64,000 bases of DNA from Acidobacteriaceae bacterium (lineage in GTDB: Bacteria; Acidobacteriota; Terriglobia; Terriglobales; Acidobacteriaceae): the NCBI GenBank assembly GCA_025360645.1, contig JANYBT010000054.1:1-64000 (forward strand), written 5' to 3'. The notes below the pieces were generated by a model, which did not search any database, had not been told where the DNA came from, and was given only the letters and a program-made list of their open reading frames with translations. How positions within the stretch are numbered: the stretch's first letter is position 1; every line of letters begins with the position of its first letter. The translations under genes were made by a program, and so were the position numbers. Shown here in pieces: positions 1,881-13,713 of the stretch.

Positions 1881-2316
1881 GATTGATCTATTATGCGCGG
1901 CGACTGAGGGTGATGTCAGGTACGTACGTCACACATGCGGCGCGAGTCGCGTCACATCGGGGGGAGGCGTTTGCTGCGAAAAAACGGGAGAATTTGTGCC
2001 GGCCGAATGTGACTTGCGGTCAGCAGCGAGTGCGCATCTCCACGTGATTCAAGCACTTGGTGACCGGCGTCGGACCCACATTGGAGGAAGGCTGAACAAA
2101 TCCGATGAGGGGAGGGGAACTCGGGGAGAGTCCACCCAGGTAGACAGTTTCTGGTGTGAGTAGTCGCGAAATCAATCGCCTCTAGCAACTTCTGGAGACA
2201 ACACTTTGCATGTCTTGCGTGCTCCGAAGCTCGGCCGTAACGTTGAAACTGAAACATTCCGCAAGTGCAAGCTTGCGAAAGCGGTCGCGACGAGCAGGCG
2301 GTCAGAGCAACAGGAG
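1881..2316. promoter_or_regulatory. Divergent control region between regulator and EPS operon
   Basis: A 436-base stretch separating the minus-strand LuxR-type gene from the plus-strand export gene; it must hold promoters for both. A palindromic GTACGTAC lies at about 1920 inside a wider imperfect inverted sequence (GTGA...TCAC) and could be an operator. Open frames through it have poor protein texture. No clear consensus promoter stands out by eye. Confidence 0.35.
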
Positions 2317-3141
2317 ATGAACGCAATATTACGCACGGTCGTGGTGGTGGCTGCTGGTCTGCTCGTCCAGCAGTCGGTCGTGGTCGCAGCGGGGCAAGAA
2401 GTGGCGCCGGCAGCAGTGGTAAGCAGTCTGGAAAGTCCGAACAGCTCGAACGTTCCATTGCCGGCGGTGGGATCCAAGGGGAATCTGTCCCTGGACACCC
2501 AGACGCCTCTTGACGCTGCGATCACAAAACCCGGCAGAGCGGAAGGCACGGGAGATCCTGCACTCGGAGGGGAGCGCCATCCGCTCTATCGGCTACACAA
2601 GAGCGACGTTCTGGAAGTGAGTTTCACGTTTTCACCCGAGTACGACCAGACTGTCACCATTCAACCCGACGGTCGCATTTCGCTGAAGCACGTAGGCAGC
2701 CTGTTCGTGGAGGGACTGAGCCTGCCGGACCTGACGGATGCGGTGCGTGGCGCCTGCGCGGGGACGTTGCATGACCCCGAGGTCAGTATTGCTCTGAAAG
2801 ATTTTGAGAAACCGTATTTCATCGCGACGGGCGAAGTGGCGCGTCCAGGAAAATACGAGTTGCGCAGCGAAATTACGGTGAACGAGGCGGTGGCCATGGC
2901 GGGCGGCTTCACCAAACAGTCGAAGCACTCGCAAGTGGTGTTGTTCCGGCGCGCGGCGGACGATCTGGTCGAGGCCCGCGTGTTGAACCTGAAGCAGATG
3001 CTGAACCACAGGAACTTGAGCGAAGACATGCACTTGCGGCCCGGCGACCTGGTCTACGTGCCGCAAAGTCAGATCTCAAAGATCCAGCGCTTCATGCCCA
3101 CGTCGAGTATGGGCATGTACATGAGCGGATTGAAGTTCTGA
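2317..3141 (+). CDS. Wza-like polysaccharide export protein (Poly_export + SLBB)
   Basis: 274 residues from the ATG at 2317, chosen because it opens directly with a signal peptide (about residues 1-25, ending near VVAAGQ). The longer frame from 2206 would bury that signal. A low-complexity Ala/Ser/Pro linker follows. Next is the polysaccharide export domain (about 90-170, beginning YRLHKSDVLEVSF) and one SLBB domain (FIATGEVARPGKYELR onward). No lipobox Cys is visible, unlike E. coli Wza, and the protein is shorter, so the outer-membrane channel may be completed differently. It is the first gene of the EPS run, and its stop is followed after one base by the next start. The GGAG before the ATG is unusually close. 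Confidence 0.85.
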   Translation: MNAILRTVVVVAAGLLVQQSVVVAAGQEVAPAAVVSSLESPNSSNVPLPAVGSKGNLSLDTQTPLDAAITKPGRAEGTGDPALGGERHPLYRLHKSDVLEVSFTFSPEYDQTVTIQPDGRISLKHVGSLFVEGLSLPDLTDAVRGACAGTLHDPEVSIALKDFEKPYFIATGEVARPGKYELRSEITVNEAVAMAGGFTKQSKHSQVVLFRRAADDLVEARVLNLKQMLNHRNLSEDMHLRPGDLVYVPQSQISKIQRFMPTSSMGMYMSGLKF

Positions 3142-3142
3142 G

Positions 3143-4651
3143 TTGGCAGTGAGCGACGAGATGTTAGAGGAAAGCCCAATTCGCAGGCAGCTGAGAGCAC
3201 CGCCCTCCCCCACCATGCGCGATGTGCTGGCGGTGGTTTTCCGGCAACGGAGGCTGTTCGCCTGGAGCTTTGCGGTGACGTTTGCGATTGTCCTCCTGTA
3301 CGGGATCATGTCTCCCAACTACGAGGCCCATATGCGGGTGCTGGTGCGCAGAGGGAGACTGGATCCCGTGATGACGGCGGAGGTCAACACGCCGCCGCAG
3401 TTTGCGCGCAGCGAGGTGGGCGAAGAGGAACTGAACTCGGAAGTGGAACTGCTGCGGGATGAACAACTTCTGAAGAACGTGGCGCTTGCGGCAGGAGTCG
3501 TAAAACCGAGTCTGTTCACGCGGCTGCACCTGACGGCGGACGATGCGGAGGGGAACGCGCAACGAGCGGCGCGCACGCTTGCTCAACAAGTGCAGGTGGC
3601 GGCGGTGAAGCGCACCAACCTGATCCAGGTTGCGTACCGGGCGGACAGTCCGGCGGAGGCGGCCCGAGTTTTGCAGGCGCTGATGGCGCAGTACCTGGAA
3701 AAACATGCTGCGGTGCATCGTCCGTCGGGCGAGTCGCGGTTCTTCGATCAGCAGACAGCGCAGTACCAAGAGCGGTTGGCAGCGGCGGAGCGGTCGGTGG
3801 CCAGCTTCACGCGCGAGCGGGGAGTGGTCTCGGCGGCATTGGAGCGGGACATCGCATTGCAGAAGTTGGGAGAGGCGGATGCGGGAGCGCGGCTGGTGCG
3901 GCAGGGGATTGCAAATCAGCAGAAGCGTATCGAAGAACTGGGTCGGCAACTTGCGAAGCTGCCGGAGCGGAGCACCACGGAGGTGCGCACCTCGGACAAC
4001 CCGATCTTGCTGGAAAAGCTAAAAACGAAAGTGCTCGAGCTGCAATTGAAGAGAACCGAACTAGTGACCAAGTTCGAACCGAGCTACCGGCTGGTGCGGC
4101 AGGTGGATGAGCAGATTGCGGAAGCGCGGCAAGCGATCGTGGCGGAGAACCTGACGCCGGTGCGGGAACAGATCACGGCGAAGGACGCGAATTACGAGTG
4201 GGCTAAGGCGGAATTGGCCAGGGCCTTTGTCGATCTGGGCGGACTGCAAGCGCAGGAACTGGCCGCGAATGGTCAGTTAGCTGCGCTGCGGCAGTCCGCC
4301 CGCCAGTTCCAGCAAGACGCGCTGGTGCAGGGGGACCGGACGCGCCAGGCCAAGGCGGAGGAAGACGACTATTTACTGTACCGGCGCAAGCGGGAGGAGG
4401 CGCGGATCGGAGATGCGCTGGACGAACGGGGCATCGTGAACGTGGCAGTAGTGCAGGAACCGGTAGCACCGGCAATTCCGGTCCATTCGTTCCTGGCATT
4501 TTTGCTGGCGGGATTTGGAGCGGCCAGTGTGATGAGCGTGGGGACGGTGTTCGTGGCGGACTACCTGGACCCGGCGCTGCGGACGCCGGAGGAAGTGATC
4601 TACATTCTGGGAGCGCCGCTGCTGGCGTCATTGCCGGAAGATGCAGCGTAG
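3143..4651 (+). CDS. Wzz/GumC-type chain-length determinant protein
   Basis: 502 residues. A transmembrane helix at about 33-55 is followed by a long periplasmic region rich in heptad-like Arg/Glu/Gln/Leu coiled coil (about 185-420). A Pro-rich stretch (EPVAPAIP) and a second helix at about 449-472 follow. This is the polysaccharide co-polymerase architecture, which sets polymer length and links the inner-membrane polymerase to the export channel. There is no cytoplasmic kinase domain after the second helix; a CpsD-like protein comes as the next gene. The start is uncertain: TTG at 3143 almost touches the upstream stop, and GTG 3149 or ATG 3161 are alternatives that do not affect the domains. 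Confidence 0.88.
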   Translation: MAVSDEMLEESPIRRQLRAPPSPTMRDVLAVVFRQRRLFAWSFAVTFAIVLLYGIMSPNYEAHMRVLVRRGRLDPVMTAEVNTPPQFARSEVGEEELNSEVELLRDEQLLKNVALAAGVVKPSLFTRLHLTADDAEGNAQRAARTLAQQVQVAAVKRTNLIQVAYRADSPAEAARVLQALMAQYLEKHAAVHRPSGESRFFDQQTAQYQERLAAAERSVASFTRERGVVSAALERDIALQKLGEADAGARLVRQGIANQQKRIEELGRQLAKLPERSTTEVRTSDNPILLEKLKTKVLELQLKRTELVTKFEPSYRLVRQVDEQIAEARQAIVAENLTPVREQITAKDANYEWAKAELARAFVDLGGLQAQELAANGQLAALRQSARQFQQDALVQGDRTRQAKAEEDDYLLYRRKREEARIGDALDERGIVNVAVVQEPVAPAIPVHSFLAFLLAGFGAASVMSVGTVFVADYLDPALRTPEEVIYILGAPLLASLPEDAA

Positions 4652-4689
4652 CGGAGAAGAGTCGGGGTCTGAAAGCGGAGAGTCTTGAG

Positions 4690-5412
4690 ATGAGTGCGGG
4701 TGTGGATGTTTTGCGAGCGGCGATTCTATCGGATGACGCTGAGCCGCGCCTCGAGGTGCGAAGGGAAGCCGTGGCGCCGCCGACTGCACGGTGGAGCGCG
4801 AGCGAGTTTGAGCGAGAGCAACTGAGAGCGCTGGTGAGGAGAGTATTTTTCCCGGGCTGGCCTCGTCCGGCGAAACAAGTGGTTTTCGCTGGAATCGAAG
4901 ACGGCGAAGACATGGCCGGGACGTGTTTGCAGGTGGCGCAAACCTTGGCGGCGGAAGTTTCCGCGACGGTGGCGCTGGTGCCGGCAACCGCCGAGCCCGG
5001 GGGAGAGCAGAGCCCCTTGGAGTGGAAGAACGAAGTGACGGGGCCACAGAGCAGTCTGCGAATGATTTCTCGGCGGCTTTCCGAGCACGTGTACGAGGTA
5101 CCGGCGCAAGTGCTGGCTGGACAGGACGGAGGAGCTTGCCCCGCGGCGAGGTTGCGAGACCGGATCCACCAACTGCGCCACGACTTTGAATACTGTGTGC
5201 TGTATTCTCCGCCTCTCGGACGGTCGAACCAAGCGGCATTGCTGGGGCAGTTGACGGATGGAGTGGTGCTGGTGCTGCAGGCGCACCAGACGCGACGAGC
5301 GGCGGCCAGCAAAGCGCAGGAAGTTTTGCGAGACGCCAATGCCAAACTAATCGGAGTGGTGCTGAAGGGGAGGCGGTTCCCAATCCCCGAAGGCTTGTAC
5401 CGGCGGTTGTAG
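4690..5412 (+). CDS. CpsD/CapB-like P-loop protein, predicted pseudo-kinase
   Basis: 240 residues with the overall pattern of bacterial tyrosine (BY) kinases that partner chain-length proteins. The end (DGVVLVLQAHQTRRAAASKAQEVL..., then IGVVLKG) matches the family well. All three ATP motifs are lost. The Walker A place reads AGIEDGEDMAGT with no GKS/T, Walker A' reads VALVPAT with no Asp, and Walker B reads YCVLYSPPL where DxPP is usual. The Tyr-rich tail is also missing (only one Tyr near the end). It follows the Wzz-like gene, so a structural or regulatory partner role is more likely than kinase activity. Confidence 0.72.
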   Translation: MSAGVDVLRAAILSDDAEPRLEVRREAVAPPTARWSASEFEREQLRALVRRVFFPGWPRPAKQVVFAGIEDGEDMAGTCLQVAQTLAAEVSATVALVPATAEPGGEQSPLEWKNEVTGPQSSLRMISRRLSEHVYEVPAQVLAGQDGGACPAARLRDRIHQLRHDFEYCVLYSPPLGRSNQAALLGQLTDGVVLVLQAHQTRRAAASKAQEVLRDANAKLIGVVLKGRRFPIPEGLYRRL

Positions 5413-5485: not shown

Positions 5486-7081
5486 ATGTCTTTGCCGGCA
5501 GTTTCGCCATTGCCTAACCAAAGCGTAGCGGTGGAGAGCTATGCGCGAGTGATTCCAGGCTCTGCCGTGAGGGCGGCGGGGCAGAAGAAAGGGCCAGCGC
5601 GAGTGGGGGGTAGGGGGCCTCAAGGCGAAGTACATGATCCGCAGGAATGGATTGAGGCGGCCGAGACGGGCAGCGGCACGGCAGATTATCCGCAGCGGGT
5701 GCAAGCTATTCTGCAGGCGATGCTGCCGCGGCCACGAGCGGAGAGCCGGTGGAACTTGTGGCGTGCGGTGCTAGTGGATGGAGCTGTACTGCTGGCGGGT
5801 TCGTTGGGAACGGCGCGAGTGTTGGGCTTGCATCTGGGGTTTTCGGTGGGATTCGCCACGCTGTACACGATTGTGGCGACGCTGTTGATTTTCAGCGAAG
5901 GAGGCTACGACAGCGACTGCCGCAGCGCGGCGCCGGTGACCAAGTCAGTGATGTGGGCGGCGTTGCTGACGGTGGGTTGCAGTTGGCTGATGACGGATGG
6001 GTCGCCGACGCGGGTGCATACGCTGCGGGCGGCGGCGGCGGGGTCGGCGGGATTGCTGGCGCTACGCTGGTGCACCATGCACCGCGCGTCGATCAGGTTG
6101 CGGTCCGGGTCCGCGCCGGTTCGCAATGTGTTGATCGTGGGTGCGGGACGGGAAGGCAGGAGGATCGCGGAGCATCTGGAGTCGCTGCCGCGATCGGGCT
6201 ATGCGGTGAAGGGCTTTCTGGACGACACGCTGCTGGCCTATCCGGGAGTATTGGGACGGATCGACGATTTGGAACAGGTGGCGCGTGCCCACTTCGTGGA
6301 TGAGGTGATGGTCGCTCTGCCGGGAGAACCCGACCGGTCACGCAGCATAGTGGAGCGGGCGCGCCGGAACCGGCTGGACGTGACGGTGGTCCCGAATCTT
6401 TATGGATCGGCCGCGGGGAAAGTGCAGATCAAGAACCTGGGGAGTGTTCCCATGCTGACGCTTCACCAGGAGGCGCTGCCGGCGGGAGGGCTGTTGGGGA
6501 AGCGTGCCTTCGATGTGGTGGGAGCGCTGGGTGGGCTGGTGGTGGGCTGGCCGTTGATGGTGGCGATCGCACTGCTGATCAAATTGGATTCGCCCGGGCC
6601 GGTCTGCTATGTAGCGGAGCGAGTGGGCGAGAAAGGACGGCGTTTCCGTTTCTACAAGTTCCGCACCATGCGGCAGCACTCGAACGGGCAAAGGGAGGAG
6701 TTGCGAAAAATTAACCAGCGGCAAGGACCGTGTTTCAAGATCGCCGGTGACCCGCGCGTGACCCGTTTGGGAGCGGTGCTGCGCCGCTACAGTCTCGACG
6801 AACTGCCCCAACTCTGGAATGTGCTGCTGGGGGACATGAGCCTGGTGGGACCGCGGCCTCACCCGGTAGATGATTTCGAACGGTATGAGCTGAACCATCT
6901 CCGGCGCCTCGACATGAAGCCGGGTTTGACGGGATTGTGGCAGATCATAGCGAGAAGGAATCCATCGTTCCACATCAACATGGCGCTGGACTTGGAATAC
7001 ATCGAACGCTGGAGTTTCTGGGGCGATTTGCAGATTCTGATGCGGACGGTGCGGGTGGTGCTGGCGGGGGAGGGAAGGTGA
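5486..7081 (+). CDS. Polyprenyl glycosylphosphotransferase (WcaJ/EpsE-like priming enzyme)
   Basis: 531 residues. Hydrophobic segments at about 88-185 form the membrane anchor. A Rossmann-like CoA-binding region (NVLIVGAGREGRRIAEHL) follows at about 213-300. The C-terminal bacterial sugar transferase domain starts GKRAFDVVGALGGLVVGW (about 338) and carries YKFRTM, the DPRVTRLGAVLRR-YSLDELPQ stretch and MSLVGPRPHPV. The enzyme transfers a sugar-1-phosphate, usually glucose-1-P or galactose-1-P, to undecaprenyl phosphate at the inner membrane to start each repeat unit. A GGGAGAGG ribosome-binding site precedes the ATG. It lies 74 bases after the CpsD-like gene, in the same direction. Confidence 0.92.
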   Translation: MSLPAVSPLPNQSVAVESYARVIPGSAVRAAGQKKGPARVGGRGPQGEVHDPQEWIEAAETGSGTADYPQRVQAILQAMLPRPRAESRWNLWRAVLVDGAVLLAGSLGTARVLGLHLGFSVGFATLYTIVATLLIFSEGGYDSDCRSAAPVTKSVMWAALLTVGCSWLMTDGSPTRVHTLRAAAAGSAGLLALRWCTMHRASIRLRSGSAPVRNVLIVGAGREGRRIAEHLESLPRSGYAVKGFLDDTLLAYPGVLGRIDDLEQVARAHFVDEVMVALPGEPDRSRSIVERARRNRLDVTVVPNLYGSAAGKVQIKNLGSVPMLTLHQEALPAGGLLGKRAFDVVGALGGLVVGWPLMVAIALLIKLDSPGPVCYVAERVGEKGRRFRFYKFRTMRQHSNGQREELRKINQRQGPCFKIAGDPRVTRLGAVLRRYSLDELPQLWNVLLGDMSLVGPRPHPVDDFERYELNHLRRLDMKPGLTGLWQIIARRNPSFHINMALDLEYIERWSFWGDLQILMRTVRVVLAGEGR

Positions 7082-7085
7082 GCCG

Positions 7086-8489
7086 ATGCTCTCTGGCGGG
7101 GCAGGAGTAATGCTGGGGAGAAAAATCCTGACCACAGAGCCCGCGCCGGGAGGTGGGCAAGCGGGCTCTTCGAGATTTGTTCCGGGGGACAGGGCGGGCG
7201 AAACATATGGCGGGCTGATAATGCGCGAGCCCTTGTGGGAAGCGACGGCAACGGTAGTACGACCGCTTCGGTTCCTGTTTCTGGCGCCCTCGTGGTTATT
7301 TTTGGCAACGTTGGCAGTGGTGTTGTTCCGCCCGCCGGACTACCCGTTTTATTCCGCGGACCACGTGGTCTTTGTGGCGCTGCTGCTGGCGGCGGGGTTG
7401 AACGTGATGGTGACGCGGCGACAGATACCGCTGGTCAAGGCGATTACTGCGCCAATGCTGTGCCTGCTGGTGCTGGCGGGGGCACGGCTGCTTAGCCAAC
7501 CGTTCGACGCGGAGACGTGGAGTCTGGTGGCGGCAAAGTTCGTGGTACCCTACACGCTGTTTCACCTGGCGATACTGGTGTTTGGCGAGGTGCGGGCTGG
7601 GCGACGGCTGGAGATCTTCGCGGTGGTGGTTCTGGCGTACTTGTGTTTCACGGCGCTCGCGTTTGTGGCGGGTGCAAGGGCGCTAGTTTTTCCTCGTTTC
7701 ATTTTGGATGAGAGTATTGGCATCCACCTGGATCGAGCTCGCGGGCCGTTCCTGCAAGCGGTGGCGAACGGGGTGACGTTGAACTTGCTGGGCCTGGTTG
7801 CGTTGGACTCGTTCGGACGAGGCCGGTTGCGGGGCTGGGGGGGCGCATTGCTTTTGGCGGCACTCCCGGTGGCGATTTTGGCGACGATGACGCGGGCGGT
7901 ATGGCTTTCGTTCGCCGGTTCGGTGGTGGCGGTGTGGTGGCTCAACGACAGTCAGCGGATACGACGAGTGTGCCTGGCGTGGGTGATTGCGGGCGCGATG
8001 GTGGCGGCGGTGGCCCTGAGTTCAGAGACCTTGCGGTCCACATTGCAGGATCGGGCGGTGGAAGAGGGGCCGGTGGAAGTGCGGTTGTCAGTGTACCGCG
8101 CCGCCTGGGAATTGATTCAGGAGCGGCCGCTGGTGGGGTGGGGAATCAACCGGATGCCGCCGGAACTGGCGCGGCGCATGGAGGGGTATCACCTGAAAGC
8201 GTTTTGGCCGCACAACACCTATCTGGAAATTCTGGTCGAGCAAGGCGGGTTGGGATTGGGATTGTATGTGTGGTTGATGGTGGGGGTGTACCGCCTGGGG
8301 CGACCGCGAACGGCCCGCGGCGATGAGTTTCCGGGCGCAGGCTTCCGAAGACTGTGGCCGGTGACGTTGGGGGTGTACTTGTTCAATGCGATGTTTGTGG
8401 TGATGAACTACCAATTCGTGAACGGGTTGGTGTTTACGCTGGCGGGAGTATTGGCGGCGCAGAACCGGCGCGATGAGGAGGCGCGGTAG
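7086..8489 (+). CDS. O-antigen ligase/Wzy-like polymerase
   Basis: 467 residues with about 10-12 hydrophobic segments. The WzyC-type signature lies in a large loop near residues 335-385: YRAAWELIQERPLVGWGIN, then WPHNTYLEILVEQGGLG. It would polymerise lipid-linked repeat units, or ligate finished chains, on the periplasmic face. The ATG at 7086 has a purine-rich site upstream. A second ATG at 7221 begins just before the first membrane segment and may be the true start, since the first 45 residues are hydrophilic. The last base of the stop codon is also the first base of the next gene's GTG. Confidence 0.87.
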   Translation: MLSGGAGVMLGRKILTTEPAPGGGQAGSSRFVPGDRAGETYGGLIMREPLWEATATVVRPLRFLFLAPSWLFLATLAVVLFRPPDYPFYSADHVVFVALLLAAGLNVMVTRRQIPLVKAITAPMLCLLVLAGARLLSQPFDAETWSLVAAKFVVPYTLFHLAILVFGEVRAGRRLEIFAVVVLAYLCFTALAFVAGARALVFPRFILDESIGIHLDRARGPFLQAVANGVTLNLLGLVALDSFGRGRLRGWGGALLLAALPVAILATMTRAVWLSFAGSVVAVWWLNDSQRIRRVCLAWVIAGAMVAAVALSSETLRSTLQDRAVEEGPVEVRLSVYRAAWELIQERPLVGWGINRMPPELARRMEGYHLKAFWPHNTYLEILVEQGGLGLGLYVWLMVGVYRLGRPRTARGDEFPGAGFRRLWPVTLGVYLFNAMFVVMNYQFVNGLVFTLAGVLAAQNRRDEEAR

Positions 8490-9971: not shown

Positions 9972-11231
9972 ATGAGCGTCAGGGTAGTCGCCTACATCGC
10001 GAACGAATTTCCAAGCCCGTTCGAGCACTATGTGGCGGACGAAATCGGGGAGCTGCGACGGCGGGGAGTGCGAGTCATCCCGTGCAGCGGGAGAGCGGCA
10101 TACGGGGCTGGGTGGAAGGGGGAGTCGGAGCAACTGCGGGAAGAGACGGTGTGCCTGAGGCCGGTTTCTGCGAAGTTGGCGGCGCAGTCGATATGGCTTT
10201 TGGTCTGCAATCTAGGACTGCTTTCGGATTTGTGGCTGCGACTGGCGAGAGGAAGGGAAGGACTGCGGCAACGGTGGCATGGGGTGGCCCACACTTTGTT
10301 GGGGGCGGCGCTGGCGATGCAGTTGAGAGGGAAGGGGGTTGAGCACATCCACGCGCATCATGGCTACTTTGCATCGTGGGTTGCGATGGTGGCGGCGCGG
10401 CTGCTGGGGACGGGATTCAGCCTGACGCTGCACGGTTCGGATGTACTGCTGCACGGGGCCTATCTGGATACGAAGCTTGCGAACTGCGGGTTTTGCTGCA
10501 CGGTGTCGGAATACAACCGCCAGTTCATCCTGGAGCGGTATCCGGAGGTGGAAGCGGGGAAGGTCGTGGTGCAGCGATTGGGAGTGGATGTGGAGCGGTT
10601 CACGCTGCTGCCGGCGGCAGAGCGAGGCGAGGGGGAGCGGCTGCGGTTGCTATCGGTCGGGCGGCTTCACGCGGTGAAGAACCATCGCTTTCTGATTGAC
10701 GCGTGTGCCCGGCTGGAACAACGGGGAATTGATTTTGAATGCGTGATTGCGGGCGATGGGCCAGAGAGAGAGGCGTTGTCGCGACAAGTGAAGGCGCGTG
10801 GATTGAACGGCCGGGTGAGATTTCTAGGACAGGTGGAGCGAGAGAAGTTGCGAGGCTACTATGCGACGGCCGACCTGGTGGTGCTCACCAGCCGCAGTGA
10901 AGGGGTGCCGCTGGTGCTGATGGAAGCGATGGCGCAGGGACGGTTGGTGCTGGCGCCGGCGATCACGGGCATTCCGGAGCTGGTTGAGCACGGAAAAAGC
11001 GGGTTTCTCTATCGCGAGGGATCGATGGAAGACTTCATGGCGCGGGTGGAAGAGGTGAGGAGGGCTGCGCCGGAAATGCTGGAGAGAATGCTCAGGGCAG
11101 GGCGGGAGCAAGTGCGGTCGCGATTCAACTTGCATACGAATGTGGAAGGGTTTGGGGAGTGGTTCGTGGAGCGGGCGGGGCGGAGCGAGGAGAACGGACA
11201 GTATGAGAATCCTGTACTGCAACAAATATAA
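9972..11231 (+). CDS. GT4-family glycosyltransferase
   Basis: 419 residues with the GT-B two-domain layout. The N-terminal half contains the HIHAHHGYFASWVAMVAARLLG segment typical of WcaL/AmsK-type transferases. The C-terminal half has LLSVGRLHAVKNHRFLIDA, VIAGDGPEREAL and LTSRSEGVPLVLMEAMAQG, in which the Glu-x7-Glu (EGVPLVLME) region binds the nucleotide sugar. It adds a sugar to the lipid-linked repeat unit in the cytoplasm. The ATG follows the previous stop by one base, and the 3' end overlaps the next gene by 29 bases, so this belongs to one operon. Confidence 0.9.
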   Translation: MSVRVVAYIANEFPSPFEHYVADEIGELRRRGVRVIPCSGRAAYGAGWKGESEQLREETVCLRPVSAKLAAQSIWLLVCNLGLLSDLWLRLARGREGLRQRWHGVAHTLLGAALAMQLRGKGVEHIHAHHGYFASWVAMVAARLLGTGFSLTLHGSDVLLHGAYLDTKLANCGFCCTVSEYNRQFILERYPEVEAGKVVVQRLGVDVERFTLLPAAERGEGERLRLLSVGRLHAVKNHRFLIDACARLEQRGIDFECVIAGDGPEREALSRQVKARGLNGRVRFLGQVEREKLRGYYATADLVVLTSRSEGVPLVLMEAMAQGRLVLAPAITGIPELVEHGKSGFLYREGSMEDFMARVEEVRRAAPEMLERMLRAGREQVRSRFNLHTNVEGFGEWFVERAGRSEENGQYENPVLQQI

Positions 11232-13713
11232 CTTTGGCTTTAGCGGCACCGAGGCGTATTTGTTTTCGCTGATGCGGCTGATGCGGGAGCGGGGAAACGA
11301 AGTCGCGCTGTTTTCGATGGAGCACGGACGCGAGCCGGAGATGGATTGCGAACAGACGCTGGTACCGCATCGGGATTTCAAGGATCCCCGGCAAGGAGTG
11401 TTGCGGCGCGTGGGTTTGGCGGGGCAGGCGATTTATTCGCGACAGGCGCGGCGAGCGCTGGGCGAGCAGGTAAGCAGGTTTCTTCCCGAGGTGGCGCATG
11501 TTCGCAACATCTATCACCACTTGTCGCCGTCGATTCTGTGGGAACTGAAGCGGCGTGGTGTGCCTGTGCTGTATCACCTGAACGATTTCAAGCTGCTGTG
11601 TCCGAGTTACAACCTGGTGTCAGGCGGGGAGGCGTGCGAACGCTGCGCGGGAGGGCAATACTGGCGGGTGTTGAGCGAGGGTTGTTACCAGGGATCGCGG
11701 GCAGCGGCAGCGGTGCTGGCGGCGGAGGCGTATGTGCACCATTGGCTGAAGACTTATGAAGAGTGCGTGGACATGTTTCTAGCTCCGAGCCAGTTCGTGC
11801 GGGACAAGTTGGTGGCGGCGGGATGGGACGGCGCGAAGATCCGGGTGCTGGCGCATTTTCAAAGCTTGCCGGAAGCGGTGGAGGGATCGGCGGGGCTATC
11901 GGCGGGGGGAGGGGATTACATCGCCTACTTTGGGCGACTGTCGCGAGAGAAGGGAGTGAGCGATCTGTTGCAGGCGATGAGGAGGTTGCCGAGGATTGCG
12001 CTGCGTATTGCGGGAGAGGGGCCGGAGCGGGTGGAGTTGGAAGCAATGGTGCGGCGGTGGGGATTGCGGAACGTGGAATTCCTTGGCCACATCACAGGTG
12101 GGGCGCTGGAGCACTTGGTGGGGGGGGCGAGGTTCACGGTGTTTCCGTCACACGCCTACGAGACGCTGGGCAAGAGCATTTTGGAATCCTATGCGCGGGG
12201 TAAGCCGGTGATTGCGAGCGACCTGGGATCGCGGCGTGAACTGGTGCAGGACGGGAAGACCGGGGTGTTGTATCCAGTGGGAGATGTTGAGGAATTAGCG
12301 GATGGGATTTCGTTTTTGTACGAACGTCCGGAGTTGACGCGGCAGATGGGGAGGGCGGGGCGAACGATGGTGAAACAGCGGCACGATCCGGAGGAACATT
12401 ACCGGGCGATGGTGGCGATCTATGAGGAGATGATTGGGGGAAAGGCGGAGCGGTCGAGAGAGAGGGTGGTTGGCCGGAAAACGGCAGCCGCGAAACTTCG
12501 GGTGGCGTTCATCGGCGGCCGCGGAGTGGTTGGCAAATACAGCGGCATCGAAGCATATTACGAGGAAGTGGGAAAGCGGCTGGCGGGGAAGGGTCACGAA
12601 GTCACGGTGTACTGTCGAAACTACTTCACGCCGGCGCTGGCGAATTGCAATGGGATGCGGCTGGTGCGGCTGCCGACGGTGCGCTCGAAGCACTTGGAGA
12701 CGGTGGTGCACACGCTGCTGAGCACGGTGCACGCCATGTTCTCGGGCTGCCAGATCGTCCATTATCACGCTTTGGGGCCGGCGCTGTTCTCGTTCCTGCC
12801 GCGTCTGGTGGGAAAGAAGACAGTGGTGACGGTGCAAGGGTTGGATTGGCAGCGGAAGAAGTGGGGCAGGCTAGCATCGGCGGTATTGCGACTGGGGGAG
12901 CGGGCGTCGGTGGGGCTGCCGAGCGCTACGATGGTGGTGTCGCGGACGTTGCAAGGATATTACCGGGAGCGGCACGGGGCGGAGACGCTGTACATCCCGA
13001 ACGGGACTCAACTTCGAGAGCGCAAGCCGGGGCGGACGCTGGCGGCAAAAGGATTGAGCGCGGGCAACTACATTCTGTTTCTGGGCCGCTTCTCGCCAGA
13101 GAAGAACTGCCATCTGTTGATCGAGGCGTTCGAGAGGATTGAGACCTCCGCGCAACTGGTGCTGGCGGGCGGCTCCAGCTATACCGACGACTACACCCGC
13201 GAGTTGCGAAAGCACGAGTCAGAGCGGGTGCGTTTGCTGGACTGGGTGGCGGGCGAGGAGTTGGAGGAGTTGCTGACCAATGCGATGCTGTTCGTGCTGC
13301 CGTCAGATTTGGAGGGGCTGTCGCTGGCGCTGCTGGATGCGATGGGGGCGGGAGTGTGCGTGCTGACCAGTGACATTCCGGAGAACTGCGAACTGGTGGA
13401 GGGCGCGGGCTTTACCTTTCGGCGGGGTGAAGTTGCAGACTTGGAGCGCATGCTGCGGTTGCTGATTGCCGATGAGCAGGTGCGGCGGGAGGCGGGGATG
13501 CAGGCCAAGCGCAAGATCGAGTCGAGTTATCTTTGGCCGGAGATAGTGAGGACGATCGAACGAAGCTATCGCCAGATCATGGGATGGGGAGGGCGGGGAT
13601 GGGAAGGGCCGAGGCCGAGGGACGCCGCGAGGCCAGCCGAGGACGAGGTGCGGATGCAGGAGCAGGAGCAGGTGTGGGAGCGGGAGCGGGAGCAGGAAAC
13701 GTCCGTCGCATAG
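11203..13713 (+). CDS. Double GT4 glycosyltransferase fusion
   Basis: 836 residues from ATG 11203, chosen for its GAGGAG site about 10 bases upstream and because the protein then opens MRILYCNKYNFGFSGTE. Domain one (about 1-410) has YFGRLSREKGVSDLLQAM, RIAGEGPERVELE and FPSHAYETLGKSILESYARG. Domain two starts near 431 (LRVAFIGGRGVVGKYSGIEA) and has LFLGRFSPEKNCHLLIEAF and LPSDLEGLSLALLDAMGAG. Both look complete, so one polypeptide may add two successive sugars. The last 40 residues are a low-complexity Gly/Arg/Glu/Gln tail encoded by a purine-only-like tract. An eight-G run at 12120-12127 lies within domain one. Confidence 0.9.
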   Translation: MRILYCNKYNFGFSGTEAYLFSLMRLMRERGNEVALFSMEHGREPEMDCEQTLVPHRDFKDPRQGVLRRVGLAGQAIYSRQARRALGEQVSRFLPEVAHVRNIYHHLSPSILWELKRRGVPVLYHLNDFKLLCPSYNLVSGGEACERCAGGQYWRVLSEGCYQGSRAAAAVLAAEAYVHHWLKTYEECVDMFLAPSQFVRDKLVAAGWDGAKIRVLAHFQSLPEAVEGSAGLSAGGGDYIAYFGRLSREKGVSDLLQAMRRLPRIALRIAGEGPERVELEAMVRRWGLRNVEFLGHITGGALEHLVGGARFTVFPSHAYETLGKSILESYARGKPVIASDLGSRRELVQDGKTGVLYPVGDVEELADGISFLYERPELTRQMGRAGRTMVKQRHDPEEHYRAMVAIYEEMIGGKAERSRERVVGRKTAAAKLRVAFIGGRGVVGKYSGIEAYYEEVGKRLAGKGHEVTVYCRNYFTPALANCNGMRLVRLPTVRSKHLETVVHTLLSTVHAMFSGCQIVHYHALGPALFSFLPRLVGKKTVVTVQGLDWQRKKWGRLASAVLRLGERASVGLPSATMVVSRTLQGYYRERHGAETLYIPNGTQLRERKPGRTLAAKGLSAGNYILFLGRFSPEKNCHLLIEAFERIETSAQLVLAGGSSYTDDYTRELRKHESERVRLLDWVAGEELEELLTNAMLFVLPSDLEGLSLALLDAMGAGVCVLTSDIPENCELVEGAGFTFRRGEVADLERMLRLLIADEQVRREAGMQAKRKIESSYLWPEIVRTIERSYRQIMGWGGRGWEGPRPRDAARPAEDEVRMQEQEQVWEREREQETSVA
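13581..13608 (+). other. Predicted G-quadruplex-forming tract
   Basis: Six runs of three or four G separated by one or two bases lie on the coding strand near the 3' end of the double glycosyltransferase. This meets the usual pattern of at least four G3 runs with short loops. The purine-rich bias continues to about 13700. Confidence 0.7.

Follow-up and report, generated by a model that had tools for sequence, protein, structure and literature searches.

The question raised by this locus is what a protein does when it is encoded where a BY kinase is usually found in an exopolysaccharide cluster, and yet has lost the residues with which such kinases bind ATP. The window (i.e., the whole stretch of DNA analyzed, 64,000 nucleotides of an Acidobacteriaceae genome) carries the gene at positions 4690–5412 of the forward strand, the strand that also carries the OPX, PCP, phosphoglycosyl transferase, and Wzy_C genes described below. 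The gene could be a kinase in decay, a protein that works through other kinases, or a structural partner of the chain-length protein encoded beside it.

An intact gene without the ATP-binding motifs

The open reading frame is intact, with exact bounds, an ATG start, and 240 codons for 240 amino acids. A putative Shine-Dalgarno-like element (GGAGAG, 4677–4682), read off the sequence, lies 7 nt 5′ of the ATG. We describe the gene as encoding a BY pseudokinase based on the ORF call, fold prediction, and family searches. With the canonical kinases of the same genome as the reference for the motif columns, the alignment places Met75 in the Lys column of the former Walker A loop (GIEDGEDMAGT, residues 68–78, 4891–4923), Pro98 and Thr100 in the Asp columns of the former Walker A′ (ALVPATAEP, residues 95–103, 4972–4998), and Tyr172 in the Asp column of the former Walker B (CVLYSPP, residues 169–175, 5194–5214). 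Thus, a preliminary description of this DNA was correct in stating that all three motifs are replaced. Active BY kinases have a Tyr-rich C-terminal tail; the window protein does not, as there is one Tyr among its last 30 residues.

Sequence models recognize the protein only in part. A Pfam search returned zero matches, and the NCBIfam models TIGR01007 (40.5 bits vs. a cutoff of 108.05, covering only residues 154–227) and TIGR03018, the XrtA-associated tyrosine autokinase (23.9 bits vs. 230.65), both score it below their cutoffs. The TIGR01007 match, and that of CapAB from the PDB to residues 162–226, bear out the preliminary description in its view that the C-terminal fold sequence is preserved. 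The input for AlphaFold2 was an 83-row alignment made up of 81 family proteins, the window protein among them, and two canonical kinases; the resulting model has a mean pLDDT of 84.3 and a pTM of 0.78, with the first ~30 residues and two loops as its weak parts. All 50 rows listed by Foldseek for this model are BY kinases (Wzc, CapAB, VpsO, Etk, BceF), with E-values down to 1.2e-10 and TM-scores of ~0.6. A second structural comparison gave Z-scores of 15.8–18.8 for BY kinases (CapAB 18.8, Wzc 18.0, VpsO 17.7) and at most 12.4 for MinD/ParA proteins (MinD 12.4). The protein is therefore confidently predicted to have the BY-kinase (CapB/Wzc) fold, and the outcome that the preliminary description named as refuting its reading, a predicted fold of another kind, did not occur.

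The surrounding gene cluster

The gene is third in a cluster that begins with an OPX outer-membrane polysaccharide export protein (Poly_export and SLBB by domain search, 2206–3141; the true start is probably 3′ of 2206), followed by the partner PCP (3143–4651, identified using NCBIfam), a Wzz-like protein of 502 amino acids without a kinase domain. Downstream are an initiating phosphoglycosyl transferase (5486–7081, above the TIGR03025 cutoff) and a Wzy_C O-antigen ligase/polymerase-like protein (7086–8489, Pfam), then glycosyltransferases and dTDP-sugar (rhamnose-type) genes. With the PCP gene directly upstream, and the OPX gene before that, the gene has the usual place behind a Wzz-like gene, as had been noted from the letters of the sequence. 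The PCP scores 101.9 bits against TIGR03007, under the cutoff of that model, and terminates in a short cytosolic stretch, YLDPALRTPEEVIYILGAPLLASLPEDAA. No ATPase gene lies between the PCP and pseudokinase genes of the window. Elsewhere in the window, a single 857-amino-acid ORF (11140–13713) contains two tandem glycosyltransferase group 1 units.

The same genome encodes three Lys-bearing BY kinases that score over the family cutoff (contigs C122, C31, and C111). There is also a Lys-less paralogue of the pseudokinase (G000 contig C128:29079–29828; L038:9077–9829), at a locus that holds OPX, PCP, and ExeA-like ATPase genes.

A family of acidobacterial relatives

We first searched the window's genome together with 60 relatives (61 genomes in all), which yielded 15 family places, and a profile of those 15 run over 399 genomes of the class found 95 places scoring at least 139 bits. 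A score gap separates these from canonical kinases, which begin at 120.8 bits. The 95 members analyzed here comprise 87 of the 95 profile places and eight from the 61-genome search; the other eight profile places were left out. The tested members score under the cutoffs of current models. Almost all of the 74 named loci carry Acidobacteriota titles, the cultured Acidicapsa dinghuensis being one of them, and the more distant ones are from Omnitrophota (two) and Phycisphaerales (one). One further locus (L206, CAJCHZ010000019.1) is titled Betaproteobacteria, but is a typical acidobacterial member, with a length and match position identical to those of contig C19 of genome G293, which belongs to the window's class, and the title is probably wrong. 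Our literature search, directed at the acidobacterial family itself, found nothing on it; Cuthbertson et al. may already list relatives.

Whether other Acidobacteria share the losses was a check suggested in the preliminary description, and they do share the loss of the Walker A Lys, which is absent from all 94 members that cover the site (Cys in 51, Ser in 18, Val in eight, Ala in seven, and others), with a Gly preceding the column in 72. The other motifs are lost less evenly. The first A′ Asp is retained in 77 of 94 members, the second is mostly Asn (73), and the Walker B Asp is retained in 58 of 95. Within the 14-member clade of the window protein, no member has the Walker A Lys or the Walker B Asp, and only L050 keeps the A′ Asp.

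This uneven loss bears on the idea that the degenerate site is a residual sensor that binds a nucleotide or other ligand without hydrolysis. Many members outside the window clade retain GxGCS, the first A′ Asp, and the Walker B Asp, i.e., a partial ATP site, so weak nucleotide binding is possible for those members, and there are frequent Cys residues at Walker Lys+4 (81 of 95) and directly before the A′ Asp region (84 of 95). However, the Asp residues are also gone from the window clade, so nucleotide sensing is not a shared requirement, and we judge a sensor role to be very unlikely. The window protein has only the Lys+4 Cys (Cys79, 4924–4926), a residue that may serve in core packing or at a ligand site.

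Operon conservation and selection

A PCP gene lies upstream, on the same strand and within 6 kb, in 83 of the 95 members. For six of the other 12, the DNA available upstream is <3 kb long; in L087 the start is over-called and overlaps the PCP; four (L049, L094, L095, and L100) have the PCP downstream; and for L089 no PCP is in view. A search with the family profile found no kinase-like domain in the neighboring PCPs.

This constancy of position has a bearing on the proposal that the protein is a modulator, which would enter mixed rings with an active BY kinase and adjust its activity instead of working with the neighboring PCP. Active-type kinases do coexist with it in the window genome. Nevertheless, modulation of this kind appears very unlikely, as the gene stays beside its own kinase-less PCP in 83 of 95 members, and the authors who described EcpK, a comparable protein discussed below, argue against reliance on active kinases in Myxococcus xanthus (PMC12004946).

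An ATPase gene is directly upstream in 55 of the 88 members with enough DNA. The one such ATPase tested is TIGR03015-like, under the cutoff, and the Walker A Lys pattern is present in all 61 ATPase ORFs. In two loci, an ExeA-like ATPase and the pseudokinase share one open frame (L093:2859–5099 and L139:3133–6177), which may reflect a gene fusion or an assembly frameshift. Combined loss of the A′ and B Asp occurs in 12 of 33 members without an ATPase neighbor and in 1 of 55 with one; we do not claim this as a rule, as it mostly reflects the window clade.

We calculated dN/dS by the Nei-Gojobori method, using our own script, for the 30 closest pairs of relatives. The best relative of the window gene is ~42% identical, too distant for a pair, and the values thus describe relatives only. 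In 29 of the 30 pairs dN/dS is 0.03–0.21, indicative of purifying selection, although these values are rough because dS is near or above 1 in many pairs. The exception (0.49) is the pair L157:7936–8853 and L158:7960–8877, the two members that lack the tail described in the next section, as if constraint had been relaxed after tail loss.

These results speak directly to whether the window gene is a kinase gene in decay, i.e., a pseudogene in progress. Every catalytic motif is gone from the window copy, as decay would predict. On the other hand, frames are open family-wide, the operon is conserved, and so is a new tail; together with the dN/dS data, from which only the tail-less pair departs, this conservation leads us to reject decay as hardly credible. 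The suggestion in the preliminary description that there is selection for a noncatalytic role is supported by the absence of the Lys wherever the site is covered, the persistent PCP neighbor, and the low dN/dS of relatives. Rather than an enzyme in decay, the window protein is probably a structural subunit that has been maintained as a partner of the chain-length protein.

A conserved C-terminal tail

The preliminary description noticed the loss of motifs and overlooked what has been gained: a conserved new C-terminal tail, RRFPIPEGLYRRL (residues 228–240, 5371–5409), which the family alignment places where the Tyr-rich tail would be, with a helix predicted by AlphaFold2 at residues 234–239. 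The C terminus is the most strongly conserved part of the family (R228 in 94 of 95 members, P231 in 90, and P233 and Y237 in 93 each; consensus RTFPIPExLYRRL), and the motif sits within the last residues in 89 of 95. A second conserved element, AHQTRR in the window protein (residues 198–203, 5281–5298; family consensus ANSTRR), has R202 in 87 and R203 in 88 of 95 members.

The single conserved Tyr is central to the main rival explanation, in which the protein is a kinase-dead adaptor that switches via tyrosine phosphate, with Tyr237 phosphorylated in trans by another, active BY kinase. In keeping with this, Tyr237 is nearly invariant, 75 of the 95 members have exactly one Tyr within their final 30 residues, Lys-bearing BY kinases over the cutoff are encoded in the window genome (see above), and a match over the cutoff was found in 25 of 25 family-bearing genomes tested. 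However, such kinases are widespread in the phylum as a whole (28 genomes of a sample of 40 have a match over the TIGR01007 cutoff; the sample had ParA/MinD-like proteins mixed in but gave mostly canonical kinases), so their co-occurrence with the family says little. Furthermore, the Tyr is set in a rigid R-x-F-P-I-P-x-x-L-Y-x-R-L block, which looks to us more like a structural or docking motif than a loose phospho-tail. We consider trans-phosphorylation unlikely, with a small but real chance of being correct.

None of 22 loci encoding other BY-kinase-like proteins, used as controls, has the strict tail motif, and a looser pattern was absent from 63 distinct Lys-bearing BY kinases (of 85 distinct rows). 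One of the 22 controls, an acidobacterial PCP-fused protein (L031), is Lys-less and has a looser tail that the strict pattern missed. Other PCP-fused proteins without the Lys and with the tail are from Omnitrophota (L233, L234), Phycisphaerales (L235), Granulicella tundricola (L287), and Azospirillum (L284, L285, L294); stand-alone examples are from Komagataeibacter saccharivorans (L275), along with the two members of the window genome. Relatives on plasmids of Komagataeibacter and Azospirillum bear the annotation “hypothetical protein.” It should be noted that tail-bearing relatives were partly picked because the protein match reached the tail, a selection bias; four rows picked by a match to the tail (L288, L289, L290, and L291) nonetheless proved to be tail-less, three of them with the Lys and L288 with Arg in its place. 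Two Lys-less kinase-like rows are thus off the pattern, the tail-less L288 and L286, which has a degenerate tail-like RRNHVPHWM. The remaining Lys-less rows without the strict tail are L242, which looks ParA/CpaE-like, and six fragments or PCPs that are not kinase domains.

In a tree of 83 rows, built after removal of the tail and Walker A loop columns, the 44 stand-alone acidobacterial members fall on one side of a branch with an SH-aLRT of 92, and the rows with the canonical layout require two changes. Tail and Lys loss mark essentially one evolutionary split. With just two to three independent pairs (sign test p = 1), we regard the combination as a marker of lineage and make no claim of convergence or of independent origins.

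Tentatively, we suggest that these proteins may represent an ancient line of PCP partners without kinase activity, both PCP-fused and stand-alone, that spans Acidobacteriota, Omnitrophota, Planctomycetota, and Alphaproteobacteria at a minimum. Its mark would be the tail R-x-[FY]-x-[IV]-P-x-x-[ILV]-Y, which would have replaced the mechanical role of the phospho-tail, and the tail alone might then suffice to identify co-polymerases that work without tyrosine phosphorylation. We consider this broader proposal somewhat less likely than not.

Comparison with known systems

In the published model, PCP-2 function needs cycles of tyrosine kinase phosphorylation (PMC12004946). The same report describes a different case in M. 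xanthus: EcpK, which lacks Walker motifs, interacts with the kinase-less PCP EpsV in two-hybrid assays, and EPS depends on it. AlphaFold-Multimer places the cytosolic C terminus of EpsV, 25 residues long, within a groove on EcpK. In the model published for this pair, the kinase-dead subunit attaches to the cytosolic end of the PCP and works as a scaffold instead of by phosphorylation. HfsB/HfsA of Caulobacter crescentus is counted by these authors as a second case, and they cite Cuthbertson et al. for similar pairs (PMC12004946).

The likeness to EcpK is considerable: a BYK-like fold, no Walker A, A′, or B motif, no Tyr-rich tail, and a partner PCP without a BYK domain and with a short cytosolic C terminus (PMC12004946). 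The fold, motif loss, partner type, and short PCP C terminus of the window system all fit the EcpK/EpsV model as described there. There are two differences. First, ecpK is not beside epsV, whereas the pseudokinase and PCP genes of the window adjoin. Second, EcpK, compared here by its description only, has a Lys/Arg-rich, Tyr-free C-terminal helix, whereas the window protein has RRFPIPEGLYRRL with Tyr237; as the C-terminal region of EcpK has no Tyr, its tail is not the acidobacterial tail, and the window protein lacks this hallmark of an EcpK orthologue proper. It resembles the EcpK/HfsB kind in its BYK fold without Walker motifs or a Tyr-rich tail and in its PCP partner without a BYK domain in the same pathway. 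HfsB, likewise compared by description only, is also a BY pseudokinase that stands alone and whose PCP partner, HfsA, is kinase-less, but it functions in an alphaproteobacterial holdfast system (PMC12004946).

Other systems share particular features. The CapB/CpsD/Wzc BY kinases (TIGR01007, TIGR03029) have the same fold and the position behind a Wzz-like gene, but the window protein lacks their Walker Lys and Asp residues and Tyr-rich tail, and scores under the TIGR01007 cutoff. XrtA-type EPS loci (TIGR03007, TIGR03018, TIGR03027, TIGR03015) have the same order of OPX, PCP, and kinase-like genes, and resemble the majority of family loci in the upstream ATPase gene; however, all of these models score under their cutoffs, the kinase is dead, and the window has no ATPase gene in that place. 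PslE of Pseudomonas aeruginosa (PDB 9v6l, 9v75) has a C-terminal stretch, including NRRRFEVP, that aligns with the tail region (profile E = 1.5e-6), a comparison that covers this stretch and not the Walker motifs. It differs in being a 670-residue chain and so, judging by its length, PCP-fused.

A probable phosphorylation-independent co-polymerase

Taken with the published cases, the evidence makes it likely, in our assessment, that the gene encodes a BY pseudokinase without kinase-type ATP binding or autophosphorylation, and that it forms with the adjacent kinase-less PCP a bipartite, PCP-2-like, phosphorylation-independent co-polymerase of the exopolysaccharide cluster. By analogy with EcpK, it could plausibly act as a scaffold for the chain-length protein. 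The pseudokinase would probably be positioned at the inner membrane, beneath the ring of the PCP, where it would hold the short cytosolic C terminus of the PCP, and the ring would be supported through binding and release rather than tyrosine phosphorylation. The tail is most likely a docking or membrane-facing element in place of the Tyr-rich phospho-tail; we infer that it docks onto the base of the PCP or onto the membrane face.

The concept of a two-protein, phosphorylation-free system is not new, as EcpK/EpsV and HfsB/HfsA are published. Within the literature searched, what is added here is a family of acidobacterial proteins and the signature of its tail. Two testable sites can now be named, the tail of the pseudokinase and the cytosolic end of the PCP. 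If the interpretation is correct, phosphorylation-free co-polymerases would be common in soil Acidobacteriota and recognizable from sequence.
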